Part shown: piece after piece, positions 49,216 through 64,000 of the stretch
Layout: each line of letters begins with the position of its first letter
Numbering within the stretch: the stretch's first letter is position 1
Assembly: GCF_013371465.1 (NCBI RefSeq)
Contig: NZ_JABWDU010000007.1
Coordinates: forward strand, 1-64,000
DNA: 64,000 nucleotides
Source: Ensifer oleiphilus
GTDB taxonomy: Bacteria > Pseudomonadota > Alphaproteobacteria > Rhizobiales > Rhizobiaceae
Direction: 5' to 3'
Notes under the pieces: generated by a model
The model's input: the letters and a program-made list of their open reading frames with translations, nothing else
Databases searched by the model: none
What the model was told of the DNA's origin: nothing
Made by a program: the position numbers and the translations under genes

Positions 49216-50253
49216 TCAACTGCTCCGGCGATGCTGCAGCGTAAAGCGGGTGTCGATCGTCAATTGCCTCTCGGGCTTTTCGCCGTTGAGGTGATCTTCG
49301 ATCAGCCGCGCGGCTTCGCGGCCGATGAGGTCGCCGGAGGGGCGGATCGTGGTGAGCGGCGGGTTGCAGGCGGCGCTGAAGCTCAGGTCGCCGAAGCCAA
49401 CTACGGCGAGCCGCTCAGGCACGGCGACCCCCAGGCGATTGCAGGCGAAGAGAGCACCGAGCGCAATATGATCGTTAGAGCAGGCGATGCCGTCGGCATT
49501 GGGATAAAGCCTAAGCGCTTCGGAAAGCAGCATGGCGCCGATCTCGGCGGAAGCGGTGTCGGGATGTTCCACGACTTGAGCCGCTGCGCCGCCGGTGCGC
49601 GCGGCTTGCAAGAAGCCGTCGCAGCGTTGCTTGGCGCGACGGTCCTGGTGCATGCGCGCGCCGAGGAAGACCAGGTTGCGGCGGCCTTGCTGGATGAGGT
49701 GCGCGGCGGCGGCGATGCCGACCTGGTCGTGATGGAAGCCGATGGCGGAATCGATCTGCGGTCCGCCCAATTCCCAGATCTCGATGACAGGGATGGTGAC
49801 GTTGGCGAGCAGGCGGCGGGTCGACGCGCTGTGGGAAAGGCCGGTCAGGACGATGGCAGCCGGGGCCCAGGAGAGCGCCATGCGCACCAGTTCCTCCTCC
49901 TCGAGTTCGTCATACTCCGTATGGCCGAGGATGAGCTGCAGGCGCTGCTTCTTCAGCGCGGCCTGCATGGCGGAAACCGTCTCGGCGAAGAAGGCATTGC
50001 GCACTGACGGCACAATGATGCTGACGGCGCGGGAGGAGGCGGCTGCGAGCCCGCCGGCCATGAGGTTCGGCACATAGTTGAGCTTGTCGATCGCTCGGCT
50101 GATCGCCTGGCTCGCGCTTGGGGAGACCGCATCCGGCTTGCGCAGGAAGAGCGAAACCGTGGAGGGTGAGACATTGGCCAGTTCGGCCACGTCGGTCATC
50201 GTCACGGACTGCATCTTGCGGCGATTGCGTGGTTTTCTAACGATTCTTTCCAT
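49216..50253 (-). CDS. LacI-family transcriptional regulator, probable repressor of the sulfoquinovose cluster
   Basis: The 345-residue protein has the LacI headpiece (VTMTDVAELANVSPSTVSLFLRKPDAVSPSASQAISRAIDKLNYVPNLMAGGLA) and a periplasmic-binding-like core (SIIVPSVRNAFFAETVSAMQ, GFHHDQVGIAAAAHLIQQGRRNLVFLG, PLTTIRPSGDLIGREAARLIEDHL). It resembles gluconate-type GntR of the LacI family. It diverges from the importer and sulfo-ED genes; two CGTAGCGCTAT sites flank the spacer. LacI-type repressors with an SQ-derived inducer are usual in such clusters. Confidence 0.93.
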   Translation of the reverse strand: MERIVRKPRNRRKMQSVTMTDVAELANVSPSTVSLFLRKPDAVSPSASQAISRAIDKLNYVPNLMAGGLAAASSRAVSIIVPSVRNAFFAETVSAMQAALKKQRLQLILGHTEYDELEEEELVRMALSWAPAAIVLTGLSHSASTRRLLANVTIPVIEIWELGGPQIDSAIGFHHDQVGIAAAAHLIQQGRRNLVFLGARMHQDRRAKQRCDGFLQAARTGGAAAQVVEHPDTASAEIGAMLLSEALRLYPNADGIACSNDHIALGALFACNRLGVAVPERLAVVGFGDLSFSAACNPPLTTIRPSGDLIGREAARLIEDHLNGEKPERQLTIDTRFTLQHRRSS

Positions 50254-50262
50254 GCCTATCTC

Positions 50263-50273
50263 CGTAGCGCTAT
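50263..50273. promoter_or_regulatory. CGTAGCGCTAT site 1, probable LacI operator
   Basis: CGTAGCGCTAT with the TAGCGCTA palindrome, 10 bases before the LacI start codon (on its upstream side). The same 11 bases recur at 50436-50446. Confidence 0.65.
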
Positions 50274-50435
50274 TATAGTATTTATAGCATGTGTTTTGGC
50301 GTGCAGCAACGAAAAAGAAGTGCAGCTATTTGCTCAATATCATGAAAATGCTGCGATATTTCGGATGGTTTGCTTCTTTTCATTTCGGTGCGTGGCAAAA
50401 AATAAGTTTTTCGCTGCTGCTTGCATGATCAAAAT

Positions 50436-50446
50436 CGTAGCGCTAT
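50436..50446. promoter_or_regulatory. CGTAGCGCTAT site 2, probable LacI operator
   Basis: The second copy lies within AATCGTAGCGCTATGATT, an 18-base near-perfect dyad, 50 bases before the ATPase gene. Binding here would block the importer and catabolic operon promoter. Confidence 0.7.
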
Positions 50447-50495
50447 GATTGGCCATCACATCGGGGAAGCCCCGTTGCGCGCTTGGGAGAGAGGA

Positions 50496-52848
<2,353 letters not shown>

Positions 52849-52855
52849 TCGGAAC

Positions 52856-52880
52856 TGCCGGAAGGGTTTTCCTTCCGGCA
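52856..52880 (+). other. intercistronic hairpin after the binding-protein gene
   Basis: TGCCGGAAGG and CCTTCCGGCA form a perfect 10-bp stem with loop GTTTT, 8 bases after the binding-protein stop and 31 bases before the permease start. No T-run follows. Confidence 0.75.
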
Positions 52881-52910
52881 CCCCAACCTGAACCGTCGGG
52901 AGTTGCACCG

Positions 52911-53846
52911 GTGACAAACACCTCCACCCTCATTGCGGCACGCCCCGCCGATCGCGGCCCGCCGGCCTGGACGCGCTGGCTCGATCTTGGCGACCGGGCG
53001 CTCGCCGTGGTCCTGCTTGCGCCCGCGGCCATCCTTCTCGCGCTGATCATCGTCTATCCGGTGCTGCGCCTCGGCTATACCAGCTTCTTCAGCCTGTCAT
53101 TGACGTCAGGCCTGCCGGGGGAGTTCGTCGGGCTGGAAAATTACAGCCTGATGCTGGAAGACCCGGTTTTTTGGGAAACCACCTGGAACACCGTGCTCAT
53201 CACACTCATTACCGTGCCCGGCGCTCTCCTGGCCGGGCTGGCACTGGCCCTGCTCGCGAACCTCCCCTTCGGCGTGCAGTGGCCGGTGCGCCTATCCCTG
53301 CTCATCCCTTGGGCGCTGCCGCTTTCGTTCGCCGGCCTGATCTTCGCCTGGTTCTTCCATTCGGAATACGGCGTCGTCAACGACGTACTGAACCGCATGG
53401 GTTTCGAGGGCATCATCTGGTTCAACTCGCCGAACTGGGCCTTCGCCGCCATCTGTCTGACGATCATCTGGAAGACCTCGTCGTTCATGGCGCTGATCAT
53501 CCTTGCCGGCCTCCAGACGATCCCGCGTTCGCTCTATGAGGCAGCCGATGTCGACGGCGCCGGCCGCATCCGCCAGTTCTTCGAGATCACGCTGCCGCTC
53601 CTGAAACCCTCCATCGTCGTGGCGCTGATCTTCCGCACCATCACGGCACTGCAGACCTTCGACATTCCCTACATGATGACCGGCGGCGGCCCCGGCACTT
53701 CCACTGCCACGCTCGCCATGTACATCCACCAGAACACGGTCTCCTTCCTAGACCTCGGCTACGGATCGGCGCTCGCCGTCGTGATGTTCGCCCTGTCGAT
53801 GTGCGTGACCGCCGTCTATCTCCGCGCCATCCGGACCAAGGAGTAA
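52911..53846 (+). CDS. sugar ABC transporter permease (MalF/UgpA type)
   Basis: The 311-residue protein has six transmembrane helices (LAVVLLAPAAILLALIIVYPVLRLGYTSFF at the start) and the EAA-type loop QTIPRSLYEAADVDGAGRIRQFFEITLPLLKPSIVVALIFRTI. GTG 52911 follows GGGAG by 7 bases. It pairs with the MalG-type gene 3 bases downstream. Confidence 0.95.
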   Translation: MTNTSTLIAARPADRGPPAWTRWLDLGDRALAVVLLAPAAILLALIIVYPVLRLGYTSFFSLSLTSGLPGEFVGLENYSLMLEDPVFWETTWNTVLITLITVPGALLAGLALALLANLPFGVQWPVRLSLLIPWALPLSFAGLIFAWFFHSEYGVVNDVLNRMGFEGIIWFNSPNWAFAAICLTIIWKTSSFMALIILAGLQTIPRSLYEAADVDGAGRIRQFFEITLPLLKPSIVVALIFRTITALQTFDIPYMMTGGGPGTSTATLAMYIHQNTVSFLDLGYGSALAVVMFALSMCVTAVYLRAIRTKE

Positions 53847-53849
53847 GCC

Positions 53850-54704
53850 ATGAGCGCAGTCGCTAACCCCGGTTTCTCCTCGCTCCTCTCCGGCCGTCCG
53901 CTGCGTTTCATCGCCGGTGGCGCGCTGATCGTGAACGGCATGTTCCCGGCGCTGTGGATCCTCTTCACCTCGCTGAAGACGGAAGCCGAACTCACCGCCA
54001 AGCCGATCACCTGGGTGCCGCATGCCCCGACGCTTTCGAACTACATGCAGGCCTTCTCCGACCAGCCGCTGCACATCTTCCTGTTCAACAGCTTCATGGT
54101 GGCGCTGCTTTCCACCGGTCTGACGCTGCTCGTCTCGGTGCTGGCGGCCTATGCGCTGGCGCGGCTGAACCTACGCTATCGCGGCCTCATCCTGTCTCTA
54201 ATCATCGCCGTCTCCACGTTCCCGCTGGTGACGCTTCTCGTGCCGCTCTTCGAAATCATGCGCACGCTGAACCTACTCAACACCTGGGTCGCGCTGGTGC
54301 TGCCCTATACGGTGCTGTCGCTGCCGGTCTGCACGCTGATGCTCGTCTCCTTCTTCGAGGGCATCCCGCGCGATCTCGAAAACGCGGCGATGATCGACGG
54401 TTGCACGCGCATGGGGGCGTTGTTCAAGGTGGTCGTACCGCTCTGCGCGCCGGGCGTCTTTACCGCCGGCATCCTGGCCTTCGTCAATGCCTGGGACGAG
54501 TTCCTGCTGGCGCTCTCCTTCAATTCCAACCCGACGCTGCGCACGCTCCCAGTCGGCATCCAGCTCTACCAGGGCGAGTTCGCCTTCCCCTGGCCGGTCA
54601 TCTCCGCAGCCCTCGTTGTCGGCATCGTGCCGGTCGCCGTTCTGATCGTCATCTTCCAGGAACGTGTCGTCTCTGGCCTCACCGCTGGGGGGATCAAGGG
54701 ATGA
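53850..54704 (+). CDS. sugar ABC transporter permease (MalG/UgpE type)
   Basis: The 284-residue protein has MalG features: GGALIVNGMFPALWILFTSLK, LRYRGLILSLIIAVSTFPLVTLLVPLFEIMRTLNLLNTW and the EAA loop EGIPRDLENAAMIDGCTRMGALFKVVVPLCAPGV. Its stop overlaps the dehydratase start (ATGA), tying transport and catabolism in one transcript. Confidence 0.95.
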   Translation: MSAVANPGFSSLLSGRPLRFIAGGALIVNGMFPALWILFTSLKTEAELTAKPITWVPHAPTLSNYMQAFSDQPLHIFLFNSFMVALLSTGLTLLVSVLAAYALARLNLRYRGLILSLIIAVSTFPLVTLLVPLFEIMRTLNLLNTWVALVLPYTVLSLPVCTLMLVSFFEGIPRDLENAAMIDGCTRMGALFKVVVPLCAPGVFTAGILAFVNAWDEFLLALSFNSNPTLRTLPVGIQLYQGEFAFPWPVISAALVVGIVPVAVLIVIFQERVVSGLTAGGIKG

Positions 54705-56434
54705 GGAAGCGTGACCTTTCGGAGCTGCGCAGCCAGCGCTGGTTTGCCTCCGACGACATGCGGGCCTTCGCGCACCGCCAGCGCACCCAACAGATGGGTA
54801 TGCGCCGCGAAGAATTCATGGGCCGGCCGGTCATCGGCATCATCAACACCTGGAGTGAGATGAGCCCCTGCCACGCGCATCTCCGCGACCGGGCCGAGGC
54901 CGTCAAGCGCGGCGTCTGGCAGATGGGCGGCTATCCCGTCGAATTGCCGGCGATCTCTGTCGGCGAAGTCATGGTCAAGCCGACGACGATGCTCTATCGC
55001 AATTTCCTCGCAATGGAATGCGAGGAACTGCTGCGCTGCCACCCGATCGACGGCGCCGTGCTGCTCGGCGGCTGCGACAAGTCCACCCCGGCGCTGCTGA
55101 TGGGCGCCTTCTCGATGGATATTCCCGTGATCTTCTGCCCCGCCGGACCGATGTCGAACGGCCAGTGGCGCGGCGTGAAGACTGGCGCGGGCACCCACAC
55201 CAAGAAATACTGGGACGAGCTTCGCGCCGGCAACATCACCCGCGAGGACTGGGTGGACCTCGAAAGTCGCATGACGCGCTCGCCCGGTACCTGCAACACC
55301 ATCGGCACCGCCTCGACCATGACTTCCATAGTCGATGCGATGGGCATGACGCTCTCTGGTGCCTCCTCCATCCCCGCCGTCGATTCCGGTCATACGCGCA
55401 TGGCGTCCGCCTGCGGCGTGCGTATCGTCGAAATGGTCTGGGAAGACCTGAAGCCGTCAAAAATCCTCGACCGAGATAGTTTTTTGAACGGCCTCGTCGC
55501 CTATATGGCGCTCGGTGGTTCCACGAATGCCGCCGTGCATCTCATCGCCATGGCCAAGCGCGTCGGCGTGCAGCTGACGCTGGACGACATGGCAGCAATG
55601 GCCGGCAAGGTCCCGGTGGTCGCCAATGTCTTCCCGTCAGGCGAATATCTGATGGAGGACTTCTATTTTGCCGGCGGCATCAATGCGCTGCTGAAAAAAC
55701 TGTCGCAGCACCTCAACCTCGACCGCCCGACCGTCAATGGCCGCTCGCTCGGTGAGAACATCGCGTCGGCCGATTGCTGGAACGACGAGGTGATCCGCGG
55801 CGAGGACAACCCCGTCGTGCCGCTCTCGCGCGGCAAGACGCTGGAAGTCCTGCGCGGCAATCTCGCGCCGAACGGCGCTGTAATGAAATCCTCCGCCGCC
55901 AATCCGAAATTCCTGAAGCATGTCGGTCCGGCCATCGTCTTCGATGATCCGCGCACGATGAACAAGACGCTCGACGACCCAGATCTCGACATCACGGAAG
56001 ATACCGTCATCGTGCTGCGCAATGCCGGCCCGGTCGGTGCGCCCGGCATGCCGGAATGGGGCAACCTGCCGATCCCGAAGAAACTGCTGAAGCAGGGCGT
56101 GCGCGACATGGTTCGCATCTGCGACGGCCGAATGAGCGGCACCCACTACGGTACCTGCATCCTGCACGTCTCGCCGGAAGCCGCCATCGGGGGGCCGCTG
56201 GCACTGCTCAGGACCGGCGACCTGATCGACCTCGATGTCGGCGCCGGCACCATCAACATGCGGGTTTCCGATGATGAGCTGGCGCGCCGTCGCGCCGAGT
56301 GGAAGCCGTCCGCTCCTATCTACGAACGCTCCTTCGCCGCCCTCTACCAGCGCCATGTCAGCCAGGCGCACGAGGGCTGCGACTTCGACTTCTTGACCGG
56401 CACACAAGCCGTGCCCGAACCGCCGATCTACTGA
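54701..56434 (+). CDS. IlvD/Edd-family dehydratase, probable 6-deoxy-6-sulfogluconate dehydratase
   Basis: The 577-residue protein belongs to the IlvD/Edd family, arabonate/xylonate dehydratase branch. The three iron-sulfur ligands are present as Cys57 (MSPCHAHL), Cys125 (GGCDKSTPALLMG) and Cys198 (GTCNTIGTASTM). In the sulfo-Entner-Doudoroff pathway this family converts 6-deoxy-6-sulfogluconate to 2-keto-3,6-dideoxy-6-sulfogluconate. The whole set of partner genes is present downstream, which supports the role; a sugar-acid dehydratase for arabonate would be the alternative. Start ATG 54701 overlaps the permease stop. Confidence 0.88.
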   Translation: MRKRDLSELRSQRWFASDDMRAFAHRQRTQQMGMRREEFMGRPVIGIINTWSEMSPCHAHLRDRAEAVKRGVWQMGGYPVELPAISVGEVMVKPTTMLYRNFLAMECEELLRCHPIDGAVLLGGCDKSTPALLMGAFSMDIPVIFCPAGPMSNGQWRGVKTGAGTHTKKYWDELRAGNITREDWVDLESRMTRSPGTCNTIGTASTMTSIVDAMGMTLSGASSIPAVDSGHTRMASACGVRIVEMVWEDLKPSKILDRDSFLNGLVAYMALGGSTNAAVHLIAMAKRVGVQLTLDDMAAMAGKVPVVANVFPSGEYLMEDFYFAGGINALLKKLSQHLNLDRPTVNGRSLGENIASADCWNDEVIRGEDNPVVPLSRGKTLEVLRGNLAPNGAVMKSSAANPKFLKHVGPAIVFDDPRTMNKTLDDPDLDITEDTVIVLRNAGPVGAPGMPEWGNLPIPKKLLKQGVRDMVRICDGRMSGTHYGTCILHVSPEAAIGGPLALLRTGDLIDLDVGAGTINMRVSDDELARRRAEWKPSAPIYERSFAALYQRHVSQAHEGCDFDFLTGTQAVPEPPIY

Positions 56435-56447
56435 GGGACCTATATCC

Positions 56448-57251
56448 ATGAGCAGCAACAACCCCTTCAAGTCCTGGCTCGGCGACACGACGCGCGCCAC
56501 CCCGCTCGGCACCTGGCTGATGGCCGCAGCACCCGCGACGGCCGAAGCCCTCGGCTATGGCGGCTTTGATTTCCTCGTGGTCGACATGGAGCATGTGCCG
56601 GTCGAGTTCACCGATCTCGCCCATATCCTGCGCGCCATCGGCTGCACACCGGCCGACGCTGTGGTACGGCTCGCCTGGAACGACCAGGTGCTCGTCAAGC
56701 GCGCGCTGGATGCCGGCGCACGCACCGTCATGCTGCCCTTCGTGCAGACGGCGGAAGAGGCGAGAGCCGCGGCATCCTATACCCGCTATCCGCCACACGG
56801 CATTCGCGGTGTCGCTGCCGTGCATCGCGGCTCGCACTTCGGTACGATCCCGAACTACCTCAAGACCGCCAATGACGACATCTGCACCATCGTCCAGCTC
56901 GAAACGCCGGAAGCGATCGAACGCTTGCCGGAAATTGCCGCCGTTGAAGGCATTGATGCACTCTTCGTCGGCCCCGGCGATCTTTCCGCCGCCATGGGCC
57001 ATATCGGCAATATCGCGCACCCGGAGGTGCAGGCGCTGATCGAGAAGGCGGCCAAGGACGCACATGCCGCCGGCAAGCCGGTCGGCATAGTCGGCCCCAA
57101 TCCGGACATGGTGAAACGCTTCATCGGCTATGGCTACGACTATGCCGCCATCGCCTCCGATATCGCCATGATGACCGGCCGTGCCAACGATTGGCTCTGC
57201 CAGTTGAGGGGCGTAACGCAGACGTCTGTCGCTGCGACGGCGGCATATTGA
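56448..57251 (+). CDS. HpcH/HpaI-family aldolase, probable KDSG aldolase
   Basis: The 267-residue class II aldolase has LMAAAPATAEALGYGGFDFLVVDMEHVPVEF (catalytic His49), VVRLAWND (Arg74), FVGPGDLSAAMGHIG with metal-ligand Asp and GIVGPNPDMVKRFIGYGYDYAAI. Members cleave 2-keto-3-deoxy acids. In a sulfo-ED cluster it cleaves KDSG to pyruvate and sulfolactaldehyde. It begins 13 bases after the dehydratase stop. Confidence 0.88.
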   Translation: MSSNNPFKSWLGDTTRATPLGTWLMAAAPATAEALGYGGFDFLVVDMEHVPVEFTDLAHILRAIGCTPADAVVRLAWNDQVLVKRALDAGARTVMLPFVQTAEEARAAASYTRYPPHGIRGVAAVHRGSHFGTIPNYLKTANDDICTIVQLETPEAIERLPEIAAVEGIDALFVGPGDLSAAMGHIGNIAHPEVQALIEKAAKDAHAAGKPVGIVGPNPDMVKRFIGYGYDYAAIASDIAMMTGRANDWLCQLRGVTQTSVAATAAY

Positions 57252-57261
57252 GGAATTGACG

Positions 57262-58913
<1,652 letters not shown>

Positions 58914-58923
58914 AGGTTTCACC

Positions 58924-60915
58924 ATGCTCCTCGAAAAGACCGCCAACGGCTTCTCGCTCTCCCTCGACGGCCGCACTGTCCTCAGCCACACAGCGGATAC
59001 CCCTGCTATCTTCGCCGGCCGCGGCGAGGAGCGGATGGACATGTATTGCGGCAATTTCGATATCGAGGACTATGTCATCGAGCGCGTCGCGCTTGCCCAT
59101 GCCGAGGTCGAGGGCGACACGATCCACCTTTCCAGCGCTCCCGGTCAGCCCGTGCGCCTCGTTCTGACAGTGGGCGGCGACAGCTTGCGGCTGCATGCGC
59201 CGGATACGTCCATTAACCGTCTCTGGGTGCGCACCGTCGCGGAAAAGGACGAGCATGTTTGGGGCGGCGGCGAGCAGATGTCCTATTTCGACCTGCGCGG
59301 CCGCCGCTTCCCGCTCTGGACGTCGGAACCCGGCGTCGGCCGCGACAAGACGACGGAGATCACATTCAAGTCCGACGTATCAGGCAAGGCGGGCGGCGAC
59401 TATTACAATACCAACTATCCGCAGCCGACCTACGTTTCGTCCCGGCGCTATGCGCTGCATGTCGATACGACCGCCTATGCCGTCTTCGATTTCCGCCGCG
59501 AGGCTTTTCATGAGGTGGAAATCTGGGCCGTGCCGGAGCGGATCGAATTCTTCGCGGCCGCCAACTTCCGAGATCTCGTCTCCAAACTCTCGCTGCGCTT
59601 CGGCCGCCAGCCTAAGCTTCCCGATTGGGTTTATGGCGGTGCGATCATCGGCCTAAAGGATGGGAAGACATCCTTCGAGCGGCTGGACAAGATCCGCGCT
59701 GCAGGCGTCAAGGTCTCGGGTCTCTGGTGCGAGGACTGGGTGGGCCTGCGCCACACCACGTTTGGCGCGCGCCTGTTCTGGGATTGGGTCGGTAACGACG
59801 AGCGTTATCCCAACCTGCGCCAGAAGATCGCCGAACTGGCCGATGAGAACATCCGCTTCCTTGGCTATGTGAACCCCTATCTCTGCGTGGATGGTTCGCT
59901 CTTCCCGGAGGCCGAAGCGAACGGCTATTTCGCGACCGATGCCAAGGGAAAAACCGCCCTGGTCGATTTTGGCGAGTTTGATTGCGGCGTAGTCGATTTT
60001 ACCAATCGCGATGCGGCGGCCTGGTTCGCCGAGCGGGTGATCGGTGAGAACATGTTGGATTTCGGCCTTTCCGGCTGGATGGCGGATTTTGGCGAATACC
60101 TGCCGATCGACGTCAACCTCAAGAATGGGATGAACGCCAAGCTGATGCACAATGCCTGGCCGACGCTCTGGGCCGAGGTGAATGCCCGCGCCGTGGAAAG
60201 CCGCGGCAAAACCGGTGATACGCTGTTCTTTATGCGTGCGGGCTATACCGGCGTACAGGCCCATTGCCCGCTTTTGTGGGGCGGCGACCAGTCGGTGGAT
60301 TTCTCCCGCCATGACGGCCTCGCCACTGTGATCTCCGGCGCGCTTTCCTCCGGCCTGCTCGGCAACGCCTATCACCATTCCGATATCGGCGGTTACACCA
60401 GCCTGTTCGGCAATGTGCGCACGGCCGAACTGCTGATGCGCTGGGCCGAGATGGCGGCCTTCACGCCGGTCATGCGCACCCATGAAGGCAACCGCCCGCG
60501 CGACAATCTCCAAATCGACCAGGACGCGGCAGTGCTCGCCCATTTCGCCCGTATGACAGCTATCTACGTTCATCTCACGCCCTACCTGAGGGCGCTTTCG
60601 GCCGAGGCTGCCGAGACCGGTCTGCCCGTGCAGCGTCCGCTCTTCCTGCACCACGAGGACGACCGCGCCACCTATGCCATCCAAGATGCCTATCTCTACG
60701 GCGCCGACCTGTTGGTCGCCCCCGTCTGGAGGGCGGGCGAGACGGAGCGCATGGTCTACCTGCCGAAGGGTGAGCGCTGGGTGCATGTGTGGACCGGCGT
60801 CGCACACGAGGGCGGCCGCGAGGTGACGGTTTCCGCACCGCTCGGCCAGCCGTCCGTCTTCTATCGCAAGGGTGCAGCGCGCGAAGAACTCTTCGCGGGG
60901 ATCGGGACGCTCTGA
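58924..60915 (+). CDS. GH31 glycoside hydrolase, sulfoquinovosidase (YihQ type)
   Basis: The 663-residue protein matches sulfoquinovosidases (YihQ) in GGGEQMSYFDLRGRRFPLWT near residue 115-133, then in the catalytic nucleophile region GWMADFGEYLP (Asp388) and acid/base GGDQSVDF (Asp455), 67 residues apart as in YihQ. The sulfonate-binding residues known from YihQ align as Arg283 and Trp286 (GARLFWDW) and Tyr491 (GGYTSLF). This points to hydrolysis of sulfoquinovosides to SQ rather than a general alpha-glucosidase. ATG 58924 is chosen as the family start. Confidence 0.93.
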   Translation: MLLEKTANGFSLSLDGRTVLSHTADTPAIFAGRGEERMDMYCGNFDIEDYVIERVALAHAEVEGDTIHLSSAPGQPVRLVLTVGGDSLRLHAPDTSINRLWVRTVAEKDEHVWGGGEQMSYFDLRGRRFPLWTSEPGVGRDKTTEITFKSDVSGKAGGDYYNTNYPQPTYVSSRRYALHVDTTAYAVFDFRREAFHEVEIWAVPERIEFFAAANFRDLVSKLSLRFGRQPKLPDWVYGGAIIGLKDGKTSFERLDKIRAAGVKVSGLWCEDWVGLRHTTFGARLFWDWVGNDERYPNLRQKIAELADENIRFLGYVNPYLCVDGSLFPEAEANGYFATDAKGKTALVDFGEFDCGVVDFTNRDAAAWFAERVIGENMLDFGLSGWMADFGEYLPIDVNLKNGMNAKLMHNAWPTLWAEVNARAVESRGKTGDTLFFMRAGYTGVQAHCPLLWGGDQSVDFSRHDGLATVISGALSSGLLGNAYHHSDIGGYTSLFGNVRTAELLMRWAEMAAFTPVMRTHEGNRPRDNLQIDQDAAVLAHFARMTAIYVHLTPYLRALSAEAAETGLPVQRPLFLHHEDDRATYAIQDAYLYGADLLVAPVWRAGETERMVYLPKGERWVHVWTGVAHEGGREVTVSAPLGQPSVFYRKGAAREELFAGIGTL

Positions 60916-60917
60916 TC

Positions 60918-61688
60918 ATGGATACCGTGAGCCTTGCCGTCCTGCTGCTGCTTGCGGCGGGCGCTTCCTATGTGCAGACTTTGACCGGCTTTGCGCTTGG
61001 TCTGCTGATGATGGGCGGGGTGGGGTTGACGGGCGTCGTACCGCTGGAAGACGCCGCCGTGCTCGTCGGCGTGCTCGGCATCGTCAACGCCGTGCAGGTG
61101 CTCGCCAAGGGCTGGCGCGCCATCGCGCGCCGTGAATTCCTGTTGGTGATCTTCATCAGCCTTGCCTTCCTCGTGCTTGGCTACTGGCTGCTCGGGCTGC
61201 TGCTCACGGCCTCGCTCGACTGGCTGAAGCTGGTACTCGGTGCGATCATCGTCCTGTCAAGCATCCAGCTTCTGCTCCAGCCCGCACCGCTGGAAAAACC
61301 CTCAGGGCCGGCATCCTTCCTGTTCTTCGGCGCGATTGCCGGCGTGATGGGCGGCCTGTTCTCCACTGCCGGGCCGCCGCTCGTCTATCATTTCTATCGC
61401 CAGCCGCTCCGGCCTGTCGCCATTCGCGAAACGCTCGTCGCCATCTTTGCTGTCAACGGGGTGTTGCGTCTGCTGCTCGTTGCCGGGGCGGGCAATATCC
61501 CTTCGACCGCCCTCTGGTGGGGACTGCTCTGCATTCCCGTCGTCATGGGTTTCACCCTGCTTGCGCGCCGCTATCCGCCGCCGCTGACGCCCACCGGCAT
61601 GCGGCGCGTCGCTTTCTCGCTGCTGTTCCTCTCCGGCCTGTCGCTCGCCGGACCCGCCTTCCTCAAGCTTTTCGGAGATTTTTCATGA
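60918..61688 (+). CDS. TauE/SafE-family membrane exporter, probable sulfolactate exporter
   Basis: The 256-residue protein has about eight membrane segments (VSLAVLLLLAAGASYVQTLTGFALGLLMMGGVGLTGVV at the start; GAIAGVMGGLFSTAGPPLVYHFYRQP in the middle) and the TauE/SafE layout. Exporters of this family carry organosulfonates out of cells in sulfoglycolysis clusters. The start ATG 60918 follows the SQase stop by 2 bases. Confidence 0.9.
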   Translation: MDTVSLAVLLLLAAGASYVQTLTGFALGLLMMGGVGLTGVVPLEDAAVLVGVLGIVNAVQVLAKGWRAIARREFLLVIFISLAFLVLGYWLLGLLLTASLDWLKLVLGAIIVLSSIQLLLQPAPLEKPSGPASFLFFGAIAGVMGGLFSTAGPPLVYHFYRQPLRPVAIRETLVAIFAVNGVLRLLLVAGAGNIPSTALWWGLLCIPVVMGFTLLARRYPPPLTPTGMRRVAFSLLFLSGLSLAGPAFLKLFGDFS

Positions 61689-63154
61689 CTCACCCGCTCA
61701 AGACCGCGCTCAAGGATGCCAGCTTGCTTGCCGACAAGGCCTTCGTCGCCGGACGCTGGGCCTCGGCTGCTGACGGCCGCACCTTTGCCGTCACCGATCC
61801 CTTCGACGGCTCCCATATCGCCGATGTGCCCTCGCTCTCGCGCGCGGAGGTGGCTGCAGCTATCGACGCGGCCGAGACTGCCCAAAAGCTCTGGGCGAAG
61901 TGCACCGCCAAGGAACGCGCCAAGGTGATCAACGCCTGGTTCCAGCTCATCCTCGAAAATGCCGACGACCTGGCGCTGATCCTCACCAGCGAACAAGGCA
62001 AGCCGCTCGCCGAAGCGAAGGGCGAGGTGATCTCGAACGCCGCCTATCTCGAATGGTTTGCCGAGGAAGCCAAGCGCATCGACGGCGACATCATTCCTGG
62101 TGCCAATACCAGCCAACGCATCATGGTGCTGAAGCAGCCAGTCGGTGTCTGCGCTGCGATCACGCCCTGGAACTTCCCGAACGGCATGATCACCCGCAAG
62201 GCCGGCCCGGCACTCGCGGCGGGTTGTAGCATGCTTTTGAAGCCTGCTTCGCAGACACCGCTTTCAGCGCTGGCGCTCGCCGTGCTTGCCGAGCGGGCAG
62301 GGGTGCCTGCGGGCGTGTTCTCCGTCGTTACCGGCGAGGCGCGGCCGATTGGGTCGGAATTCTGCCATAATCCAAAGATCGCCAAGATCACCTTCACCGG
62401 CTCCACCGGCGTCGGCCGCTGGTTGATGAAGGAGGCCGCCGACAGCATCAAGCGCCTCTCGCTGGAACTCGGCGGCAATGCGCCCTTTATCGTCTTTGAC
62501 GATGCCGACCTCGATGCGGCTGTCGAAGGCGCGATGATTTCGAAATTCCGCAATGCCGGCCAGACCTGCGTCTGCGCCAACCGCATCTATGTGCAGGAAA
62601 GCGTAGTCGAAGCCTTTTCGGAAAAGCTGCTCGCCAAGGTCTCCAGTTTGAAGCTCGGCCGCGGCACGGAAGTCGGCACCACGCAAGGCCCGCTAATCGA
62701 CGACAAGGCCGTCGCCAAGATGGAAGAACACGTTGCCGACGCGCTGGAGAAAGGCGGCAGGCTACTTATCGGCGGCAAGCGCAGTGCGCTCGGCGGCAGC
62801 TTCTACGAGCCGACGGTCATTGCCGGCGTGACGCAGGCGATGAAGGTCGCGAGCGAGGAGACCTTTGCGCCGCTCGCTCCGATCATCTCGTTCACGGACG
62901 AGGACGACGTGATCGCCATGGCCAATGACAGCGAATATGGCCTCGCCTCCTATTTCTATGCGAAGGACATGGCGCGCGTCTGGCGCGTCGCCGAGGCGCT
63001 GGAAGCCGGCATGGTTGGTGTCAACACCGGCATGATCGCCAACGAGATGGCGCCATTTGGCGGCATCAAGCAGTCCGGTCTCGGCCGTGAGGGTTCGAAA
63101 TACGGCATCGAGGGGTTCCTTGAGCTGAAATATGTCTGCCTCGGCGGGCTCTAA
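61685..63154 (+). CDS. GabD-like aldehyde dehydrogenase, probable sulfolactaldehyde dehydrogenase
   Basis: The 489-residue aldehyde dehydrogenase has PWNFPNGMITRKAGPALAAG (Arg171 at the acid-binding position), TGSTGVGRWL, the catalytic Glu261 (LELGGNAPF) and Cys295 (GQTCVCANR). GabD relatives in SQ clusters oxidise sulfolactaldehyde to sulfolactate. It starts in an ATGA overlap with the exporter gene. The C-terminal region is close to that of the partial paralogue at the left edge of the window. Confidence 0.9.
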   Translation: MTHPLKTALKDASLLADKAFVAGRWASAADGRTFAVTDPFDGSHIADVPSLSRAEVAAAIDAAETAQKLWAKCTAKERAKVINAWFQLILENADDLALILTSEQGKPLAEAKGEVISNAAYLEWFAEEAKRIDGDIIPGANTSQRIMVLKQPVGVCAAITPWNFPNGMITRKAGPALAAGCSMLLKPASQTPLSALALAVLAERAGVPAGVFSVVTGEARPIGSEFCHNPKIAKITFTGSTGVGRWLMKEAADSIKRLSLELGGNAPFIVFDDADLDAAVEGAMISKFRNAGQTCVCANRIYVQESVVEAFSEKLLAKVSSLKLGRGTEVGTTQGPLIDDKAVAKMEEHVADALEKGGRLLIGGKRSALGGSFYEPTVIAGVTQAMKVASEETFAPLAPIISFTDEDDVIAMANDSEYGLASYFYAKDMARVWRVAEALEAGMVGVNTGMIANEMAPFGGIKQSGLGREGSKYGIEGFLELKYVCLGGL

Positions 63155-63156
63155 CC

Positions 63157-64000
63157 ATGGCGGCCTTCGACTACGACATCCTCGTCATCGGCGGTGGCAT
63201 CAACGGCTGCGGCGTTGCGCGCGATGCGGCGGGGCGCGGCTACAAGGTGCTGCTCGCGGAAATGAATGATCTCGCGACCGGCACGTCGTCGGCATCGACG
63301 AAGCTCATCCACGGCGGCCTGCGCTATCTGGAACACCGTGAGTTCCGGCTGGTGCGGGAAGCGCTGATGGAGCGGGAGGTGCTCTGGCAAATGGCTCCCC
63401 ATATCATCTGGCCGCTTCGCTTCGTGCTGCCGCATCATGAAGGGCTTCGCCCGGCATGGCTGCTGCGGCTGGGGCTTTTCCTCTACGACCATATCGGCGG
63501 TCGGAAGCGCCTGCCGCCGACAAGGGTCCTGGACCTGACGAAACACGCGGCGGGCAAGCCTCTTAAGGACGGCTATGCTAAGGGGTTCGAATATTCCGAT
63601 GCCTGGGTGCAGGACGCTCGACTGGTGGTCCTCAACGCTCGAGACGCGGCCGATCGCGGCGCGGAGATTATGACACGTAGCGAAGTCATCCGCATCGAAC
63701 GCAGCAATGGCGGTTTCGTTGCCGAGATCGCCGACCGGGCGACGAAGATCTGCCGGACGGTCAGCCCCCGCCTCGTGGTCAACGCCGCCGGACCCTGGGT
63801 GGACCAGGTTATCGAGCTTGCCGCCCGTGGGGGCAATGTGAGGAATGTCCGGCTCGTGCAGGGCAGCCATATCGTCGTTCCCAAGCTGTTTGACCATGAC
63901 AAGGCCTACATCTTCCAGAACACCGACAAGCGCATCGTTTTCGCCATTCCCTACGAGGGCGATTTCACGTTGATCGGCACGACTGATCGCGACTTTTCCG
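63157..64000 (+). CDS. glpD: aerobic glycerol-3-phosphate dehydrogenase, 5' part
   Basis: The first 281 residues are visible and the gene runs off the right edge. YDILVIGGGINGCGVARDAAGRGYKVLLAEMNDLATGTSSASTKLIHGGLRYLEHREFRLVREAL is the FAD-binding start of GlpD; VVNAAGPWVDQV and FAIPYEGDFTLIGTTDRD are further GlpD landmarks. It oxidises sn-glycerol 3-phosphate to dihydroxyacetone phosphate at the membrane. It starts 2 bases after the SLA dehydrogenase stop, so it is co-transcribed with the SQ genes. Confidence 0.95.
   Translation, partial: MAAFDYDILVIGGGINGCGVARDAAGRGYKVLLAEMNDLATGTSSASTKLIHGGLRYLEHREFRLVREALMEREVLWQMAPHIIWPLRFVLPHHEGLRPAWLLRLGLFLYDHIGGRKRLPPTRVLDLTKHAAGKPLKDGYAKGFEYSDAWVQDARLVVLNARDAADRGAEIMTRSEVIRIERSNGGFVAEIADRATKICRTVSPRLVVNAAGPWVDQVIELAARGGNVRNVRLVQGSHIVVPKLFDHDKAYIFQNTDKRIVFAIPYEGDFTLIGTTDRDFS

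Follow-up and report, generated by a model that had tools for sequence, protein, structure and literature searches.

The DNA analysed here, referred to as the window, is the 64,000-nucleotide stretch that opens contig NZ_JABWDU010000007.1 of Ensifer oleiphilus (C30; 356,445 bases, in a genome of 6.76 Mb and 32 contigs). Between 49,216 and 63,154 it carries a cluster of twelve genes, which a preliminary description, made from the sequence only, had assigned to the sulfo-Entner-Doudoroff (sulfo-ED) breakdown of sulfoquinovose (SQ). Open frames for all twelve genes were found at or very near the positions initially given, and each gene bears, in Pfam, the family attributed to it, which confirms the composition of the cluster; the overlapping or near-overlapping arrangement also holds, with spacings ranging from -4 to +13 bp from the second permease through the GabD-like gene. 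The borders, on the other hand, had to be moved: the twelve genes do lie where described, but the operon continues past 63,154 into glpD, which begins 2 bp past the aldehyde dehydrogenase gene, and glpK, 29 bp past glpD, and a pair of predicted operators had also been left out. The features are as follows.

49216..50253, minus strand: LacI-family regulator, divergent from the operon (open reading frame; Pfam LacI and Peripla_BP_3)
50263..50276, unstranded: predicted LacI operator 1, CGTAGCGCTATTAT (pattern match; core conserved in lacI-ugpC spacers)
50436..50449, unstranded: predicted LacI operator 2, CGTAGCGCTATGAT (pattern match; core conserved in lacI-ugpC spacers)
50496..51572, plus strand: ABC importer ATPase, UgpC/MalK type (NCBIfam NF008653, above cut-off)
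51613..52848, plus strand: periplasmic binding protein, SmoF-like, for sulfoquinovosyl glycerol (best solved relative SmoF 7nbz)
52911..53846, plus strand: ABC permease 1 (PF00528)
53850..54704, plus strand: ABC permease 2 (PF00528)
54701..56434, plus strand: IlvD/Edd dehydratase, predicted sulfogluconate dehydratase (PF00920)
56448..57251, plus strand: HpcH/HpaI aldolase, predicted 2-keto-3,6-dideoxy-6-sulfogluconate (KDSG) aldolase (PF03328)
57256..58146, plus strand: SMP-30 lactonase, predicted sulfogluconolactonase (PF08450)
58155..58913, plus strand: short-chain dehydrogenase/reductase (SDR), putative sulfoquinovose dehydrogenase (best solved relative PpSQDH; PF13561)
58924..60915, plus strand: GH31 protein, putative sulfoquinovosidase (best solved relatives 5ohy, 5ohs)
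60918..61688, plus strand: TauE/SafE exporter, predicted sulfolactate/sulfonate exporter (PF01925)
61685..63154, plus strand: GabD-like dehydrogenase, putative sulfolactaldehyde dehydrogenase (PF00171; best solved relative RlGabD 8c54)
63157..64671, plus strand (the window ends at 64000): glpD, glycerol-3-phosphate dehydrogenase (NCBIfam NF008899, 738.6 bits, cut-off 360)
64701-66203 in contig positions, past the window edge and after glpD: glpK (TIGR01311, 687.9 bits, cut-off 590.35)

On sequence evidence, these features very probably form a LacI-controlled sulfo-ED operon for the use of sulfoquinovosyl glycerol (SQGro), continued into a dedicated glpD-glpK pair. The original assignment is right and mostly known; what is new lies in glpD-glpK and in the two predicted operators.

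The identity of the proteins was evaluated from the nearest solved protein by sequence and from the score gap to the next one. The binding protein, which by eye has a signal sequence, scores 705.9 bits with the SQGro binder SmoF (7nbz, presumably from Agrobacterium) and 240.7 with the next solved relative. The GH31 protein, on which no signal peptide was seen by eye, scores 1233 bits with 5ohy and 1231 with 5ohs, which we take to be the Agrobacterium sulfoquinovosidase (AtSQase), and 872 with the next one; it also exceeds the cut-off of NCBIfam PRK10426 (957.9 vs 553 bits). The GabD-like dehydrogenase is nearest to 8c54 (904.6 bits; next solved relative 672.5), which we assume to be RlGabD of Rhizobium leguminosarum, its database label being succinate semialdehyde dehydrogenase. 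The SDR is nearest to the sulfoquinovose dehydrogenase of Pseudomonas putida, PpSQDH (302 bits; next solved relative 218), with 147 of 252 aligned residues identical (58%).

Residues of functional relevance are largely retained. The GH31 protein has Arg283, Trp286, Asp455 and Tyr491, which we take to be the acid/base Asp and the sulfonate residues; where Gln262, Gln288 and Asp395 were expected, Val, Trp and Ile stand instead, and the expected numbering was taken as wrong. In the SDR, 9 of 11 checked PpSQDH residues are the same: the Asn-Ser-Tyr-Lys tetrad, Asp45 for NAD, the sugar contacts Asp99, Arg101 and Gln198, and the sulfonate-binding Arg152 (roles from PMC12133307 section 6). All eight checked RlGabD residues are found in the GabD-like dehydrogenase, including Arg171, Arg289, Cys295 and Glu261 (roles from PMC10599462 section 11); some sulfolactaldehyde dehydrogenases carry His/Asn in place of Arg171/Arg289, according to the same source.

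Every family step published for sulfo-ED (PMC9594981 section 5; PMC10599462 section 4 for the aldehyde dehydrogenase family) is present: PF13561, PF08450, PF00920, PF03328, and PF00171 with Arg171/Arg289. These families, along with the four proteins lying nearest, by a wide margin, to solved SQ-pathway proteins, support the match to sulfo-ED enzymes that had been claimed, and by homology the route is complete. The pathway itself is already known in rhizobia: it is described for P. putida and R. leguminosarum (PMC9594981 section 5; PMC12890257 section 9; PMC12133307 sections 3, 6, 8 and 14), and an Ensifer strain with sulfo-ED is named in PMC10599462.

In order to place the cluster among related ones, loci were collected from three sources. 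In a family set of 394 genomes the SDR was found at E<=1e-75 in 18, own genome included, and 20 kb around it were taken in the 17 others; dehydratase, aldolase and SDR occur together in 8 of these 18 stretches, four of which also have glpK (the window's own glpK being on L008). Loci from named genomes hold the three genes in 13 cases out of 25, seven of them with glpK. Plasmids were represented by 16 of 604 matching records, mostly the best rows, Microvirga VF16 being chosen for its glpD match. In the maps, tblastn matches covering less than half of the query, or less than 40% in later maps, were dropped. Merging of record copies left 34 distinct sulfo-ED loci (window, L012-L020, L022, L023, L033, L034, L037, L039-L042, L060, L061, L067, L069, L070, L073, L082-L088, L176, L177), from which L178 and L179, without SDR beside dehydratase and aldolase, were left out; several are near relatives, and the 34 are therefore not independent. 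Within the genus, the SDR was detected at E<=1e-60 in 2 of 16 genomes, own included; an SDR is also located at 68239 on the Ensifer adhaerens plasmid NZ_CP118612.1. The gene order is kept in Shinella, Ensifer and Rhizobium records, while the flanks of the four annotated sister records are unlike one another, save for neighbours common to two Shinella plasmids; the conserved order and the differing flanks indicate that the cluster is not a chance assembly.

The end of the operon varies. glpK was found in 15 of the 34 loci (window, L015-L018, L022, L023, L034, L060, L061, L084, L085, L087, L176, L177), six of which (window, L023, L034, L060, L176, L177) have glpD too. The operon closes with the aldehyde dehydrogenase gene in R. 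leguminosarum Vaf-108, Shinella and E. adhaerens; glpK is added in R. grahamii, and both glpD and glpK in the window and in Sinorhizobium BG8. In eight loci (L015-L018, L022, L061, L085, L087) glpK comes after TauE, and no aldehyde dehydrogenase match lies within the stretch. For G217 and G384, which have this arrangement, the best aldehyde dehydrogenases genome-wide are 62 and 64% identical, vs 85, 89 and 92% for other cassette copies. In two Microvirga loci, both on plasmids, glpK and glpD come after TauE with only a distant aldehyde dehydrogenase (26%); in strain VF16 a DNA match to the cassette aldehyde dehydrogenase is found on another replicon (H22). In the loci L023 and L034, from metagenome-assembled genomes (MAGs), glpD and glpK are nearby, three of these four genes being on the opposite strand from the SDR; their GlpK and GlpD fall outside the cassette branches described below and were rejected as members of that lineage, being counted in the 15 and the 6 only. 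Around the glp end of the window's operon, neither promoter-like sites (0, with shuffles averaging 1.6) nor terminator-like sites (8, with shuffles averaging 7.1) exceed the shuffled sequences.

Both glp genes have separate copies elsewhere in the genome: one other GlpK, 64% identical (E<=1e-60), and two other GlpDs, 62% and 50% identical (E<=1e-40). Among the 394 family genomes GlpK was detected at E<=1e-219 in 36, and the four best matches, own included (1149, 990, 840 and 828 bits), all lie in sulfo-ED cassettes. Surroundings were viewed for the best 7 of the 36. The fifth match (777 bits, G285, L145) stands without any further cassette gene in the 20 kb taken; the neighbourhood of the next two (G056, G381) includes relatives of ABC transporter genes, with glpD also in G381 and a piece of it at the edge in G056. 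Six of the other 29 genomes also have an SDR match (G035, G042, G052, G136, G205, G367), their GlpK lying about 140 kb off in G205 and on a different contig in the others. In phylogenetic trees the GlpK of 11 Rhizobiaceae cassettes forms one branch against 34 other rows, with a Shimodaira-Hasegawa-like approximate likelihood ratio (SH-aLRT) support of 98, and 100/100 in a smaller tree. The G285 protein, outside any cassette, is sister of this branch, and falls inside the wider branch obtained once Microvirga VF16 is added (cassette rows L016 and L017 left out); exclusiveness is therefore limited to the Rhizobiaceae branch. GlpD of the window, Sinorhizobium BG8 and Microvirga VF16 likewise forms one branch, supported 100/99 (Microvirga ossetica left out). 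On the tree of ten concatenated cassette proteins, covering 26 of the 34 loci, at least four changes are needed for glpK. A single GlpK branch combined with scattered cassettes devoid of glpK is compatible with either repeated loss of an ancient glpK or its transfer between cassettes.

The second new part is the operator pair. Allowing one mismatch, the pattern CGTAGCGCTATNAT has two matches in the window, both exact and both in the lacI-ugpC spacer; none of 100 shuffles reaches two. In 28 of the 34 loci, near relatives included, lacI and ugpC were mapped next to each other; the spacers of these 28 all contain the AGCGCT core, twice in 27 of them, and the full TAGCGCTA occurs at least once in 27 of 28. 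For the regulator itself the best NCBIfam models, GntR and IdnR, are both below cut-off. A third exact copy, before a gene for a FAD-dependent oxidoreductase on C22, was treated as chance, because the genome-wide count, given below, does not exceed that of a control; only the spacer pair is claimed.

A coherent mechanism may be proposed on these bases. SQGro, the plant sulfolipid head left after delipidation, would be taken in by the ABC importer and split by a cytoplasmic GH31 enzyme into SQ and glycerol. SQ would be oxidised by the SDR, delactonised by the SMP-30 protein, dehydrated by the IlvD/Edd protein and split by the HpcH/HpaI aldolase into pyruvate and sulfolactaldehyde, the latter being converted by the GabD-like enzyme to sulfolactate, for putative export through TauE. 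The same transcript would run on into glpD-glpK, and the freed glycerol would be turned into glycerol 3-phosphate and then dihydroxyacetone phosphate. LacI would bind both palindromes of the divergent spacer until released by a pathway ligand. As the GH31 protein has no visible signal sequence and the binding protein is nearest to an SQGro binder, we infer that glycerol is freed within the cell, where a kinase would be needed and an importer would not. From the separate glp copies in the genome, the confinement of the best GlpK matches to cassettes and the GlpD lineage shared with Microvirga, we read glpD-glpK as a dedicated glycerol arm for SQGro.

Of the six sugar carbons, sulfo-ED by itself retains three, in the form of pyruvate, the rest being exported as sulfolactate, and glycerol would yield triose phosphate; the arm, if real, would raise the carbon kept from SQGro from 3/9 to 6/9 and feed gluconeogenesis. 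We regard it as somewhat better than an even bet that the sulfo-ED cassette of Hyphomicrobiales has for a long time included a glycerol kinase and a glycerol-3-phosphate dehydrogenase of its own, with several losses or with passage from one cassette to another, that SQGro and not free SQ is the substrate for which it evolved, and that the glycerol half supplies the triose phosphate that sulfo-ED does not make. A glycerol arm in the operon makes it testable which fragment of sulfolipid is truly imported by soil bacteria, from a large pool of organic sulfur for which about 10 billion tons of SQ are made yearly (PMC12890257).

Several observations weigh against the proposed SQGro operon, some of them concerning its glycerol arm. 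No glpK is seen in 19 of the 34 loci, although L020, one of the six named-genome loci without it, ends just past the SDR, too early to tell; the arm is therefore not needed. The cassette nearest to the window in the tree, that of Rhizobium Root1212, is among those without glpK. Among 13 measured loci, which do not include the two MAG loci, glpK is preceded by a gap of 114-258 bp in 11, the exceptions being the window and BG8; this makes co-transcription less sure in those 11. A plain sulfo-ED cluster, with glpDK as a chance neighbour for general glycerol use, would account for the loci devoid of glpK, and also for G217 and G384, where the cassette glpK is the sole GlpK at E<=1e-100 and may serve that general use. 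It is rendered rather improbable by the 2-bp spacing between the GabD-like gene and glpD, by the separate copies of both genes elsewhere in the genome, by the confinement of the best GlpK matches in the family to cassettes, and by the recurrence of the link between glp genes and cassette in the two Microvirga plasmids.

Other adverse points concern the pathway and its control. The genome-wide search for the operator pattern, with one mismatch, gave 8 matches (two being one site on both strands) vs 19 for a reversed control. No separate mutarotase gene was found by family among the 14 operon genes. In the SDR, Arg154 of PpSQDH, a water-mediated sulfonate contact, and the C-terminal Gln are both replaced by Asn. 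The comparison with characterised enzymes envisaged in the preliminary description was informative for the SDR, the GH31 protein, the GabD-like dehydrogenase and the binding protein, but not for dehydratase, aldolase and lactonase, for which no solved relative is sulfo-active by name, the aldolase being nearest to HpaI-type aldolases; the predicted substrates of these three thus rest on family and linkage. The dehydratase, moreover, passes the NCBIfam model for L-arabinonate dehydratase (NF009559, 918.5 vs a cut-off of 882 bits), though its nearest solved relative (614.5 bits) is another protein, with the solved L-arabinonate dehydratase a close second (603.7 bits).

The dehydratase label could suggest a route for a non-sulfonated sugar acid (L-arabinonate, xylonate or a relative) sharing families with sulfo-ED, as could the best NCBIfam model of the SDR, D-xylose 1-dehydrogenase, though below cut-off. 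The L-arabinonate name is, however, also borne by the cassette dehydratase in Shinella, Ensifer, Rhizobium and Microvirga records, so it does not separate the two readings. Since the nearest solved chains of SDR, glycosidase, aldehyde dehydrogenase and binding protein belong in each case to the SQ pathway, and a GH31 gene and a TauE-type exporter recur in the four annotated sister cassettes, such a route is very unlikely. The result which the preliminary description had indicated as contrary to it, namely closeness of dehydratase, aldolase and SDR to arabonate/xylonate or gluconate enzymes, was encountered in name only, for the dehydratase, the SDR being nearest to PpSQDH. An ED pathway for sulfofucose of the Paracoccus wurundjeri type (PMC12421959) shares the dehydrogenase, lactonase and aldolase families, but it is hardly credible here: its dehydratase is PF13378/PF02746 and not PF00920, and the same paper cites E. 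coli and A. tumefaciens sulfoquinovosidases as inactive on a sulfofucoside, while the operon's GH31 protein is nearest to sulfoquinovosidases.

Among known systems, the sulfo-ED of R. leguminosarum SRDI565 uses the same enzyme families (PMC9594981, PMC12890257, PMC10599462), RlGabD being the nearest solved relative of the GabD-like protein, and on the R. leguminosarum plasmid of Vaf-108 the genes come in the same order, with neither glpD nor glpK in its stretch. With P. putida SQ1 the SDR alone was compared, and keeps the catalytic and main sulfonate residues; a mutarotase is named in that organism (PMC5902678), unlike in the operon described here. A glycerol kinase is found in the SQ cluster of Eubacterium rectale, of the sulfofructose transaldolase (sulfo-SFT) type, where it is proposed to help use the glycerol of SQGro (PMC11968277); pathway and phylum differ, and here glpD is present as well as glpK, in lineages tied to the cassette. 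That paper was the sole SQ-cluster report of glp genes encountered, and none was found for a sulfo-ED cluster in the open-licence literature, judged by title and start of abstract.

The nearest solved binding protein and glycosidase are those of the Agrobacterium SmoF importer and AtSQase. The pathway in Agrobacterium is of the C-S cleaving type, in place of which sulfo-ED is predicted here. Sulfolactate lyase was sought through PF04295, to which SuyB presumably belongs and which was the only gene of sulfonate breakdown sought: the single protein found in the genome (501 aa) has galactarate dehydratase as best model, below cut-off, and by that one test no sulfolactate lyase was found.

Further elements were observed near or within related cassettes. 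A second relative of the HpcH/HpaI aldolase, 40-44% identical to the cassette aldolase, lies after glpK in L015, L016, L017, L022, L061, L085 and L087. The TauE gene of the Rhizobium grahamii BG7 cassette (L084, 16450-17216) appears as two overlapping matches, as if frame-shifted or misassembled. In five family genomes (L063-L066, L068) the SDR occurs together with an ABC importer of another kind and a GH31 gene that resembles the sulfoquinovosidase at 66-69%; no dehydratase or aldolase match was found in the 20 kb seen, a lactonase being present in four of the five, and another route may be used there after SQ oxidation. In two Shinella plasmids the TAGCGCTA palindrome (L039, 6503 and 6620; L041, 6627) lies between a gene for a second SmoF-like binding protein (60-61%) and one for a Gfo/Idh/MocA oxidoreductase, adjoining the cassette, as if these two genes shared its regulon. 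Plasmids NZ_OZ000531 (H19) and NZ_OZ012597 (H20), of the same two strains, hold together genes for an aldehyde dehydrogenase, a tagatose-bisphosphate aldolase, a sugar kinase and UgpC, an assembly resembling a cluster of the sulfo-Embden-Meyerhof-Parnas (sulfo-EMP) type beside sulfo-ED in one cell.

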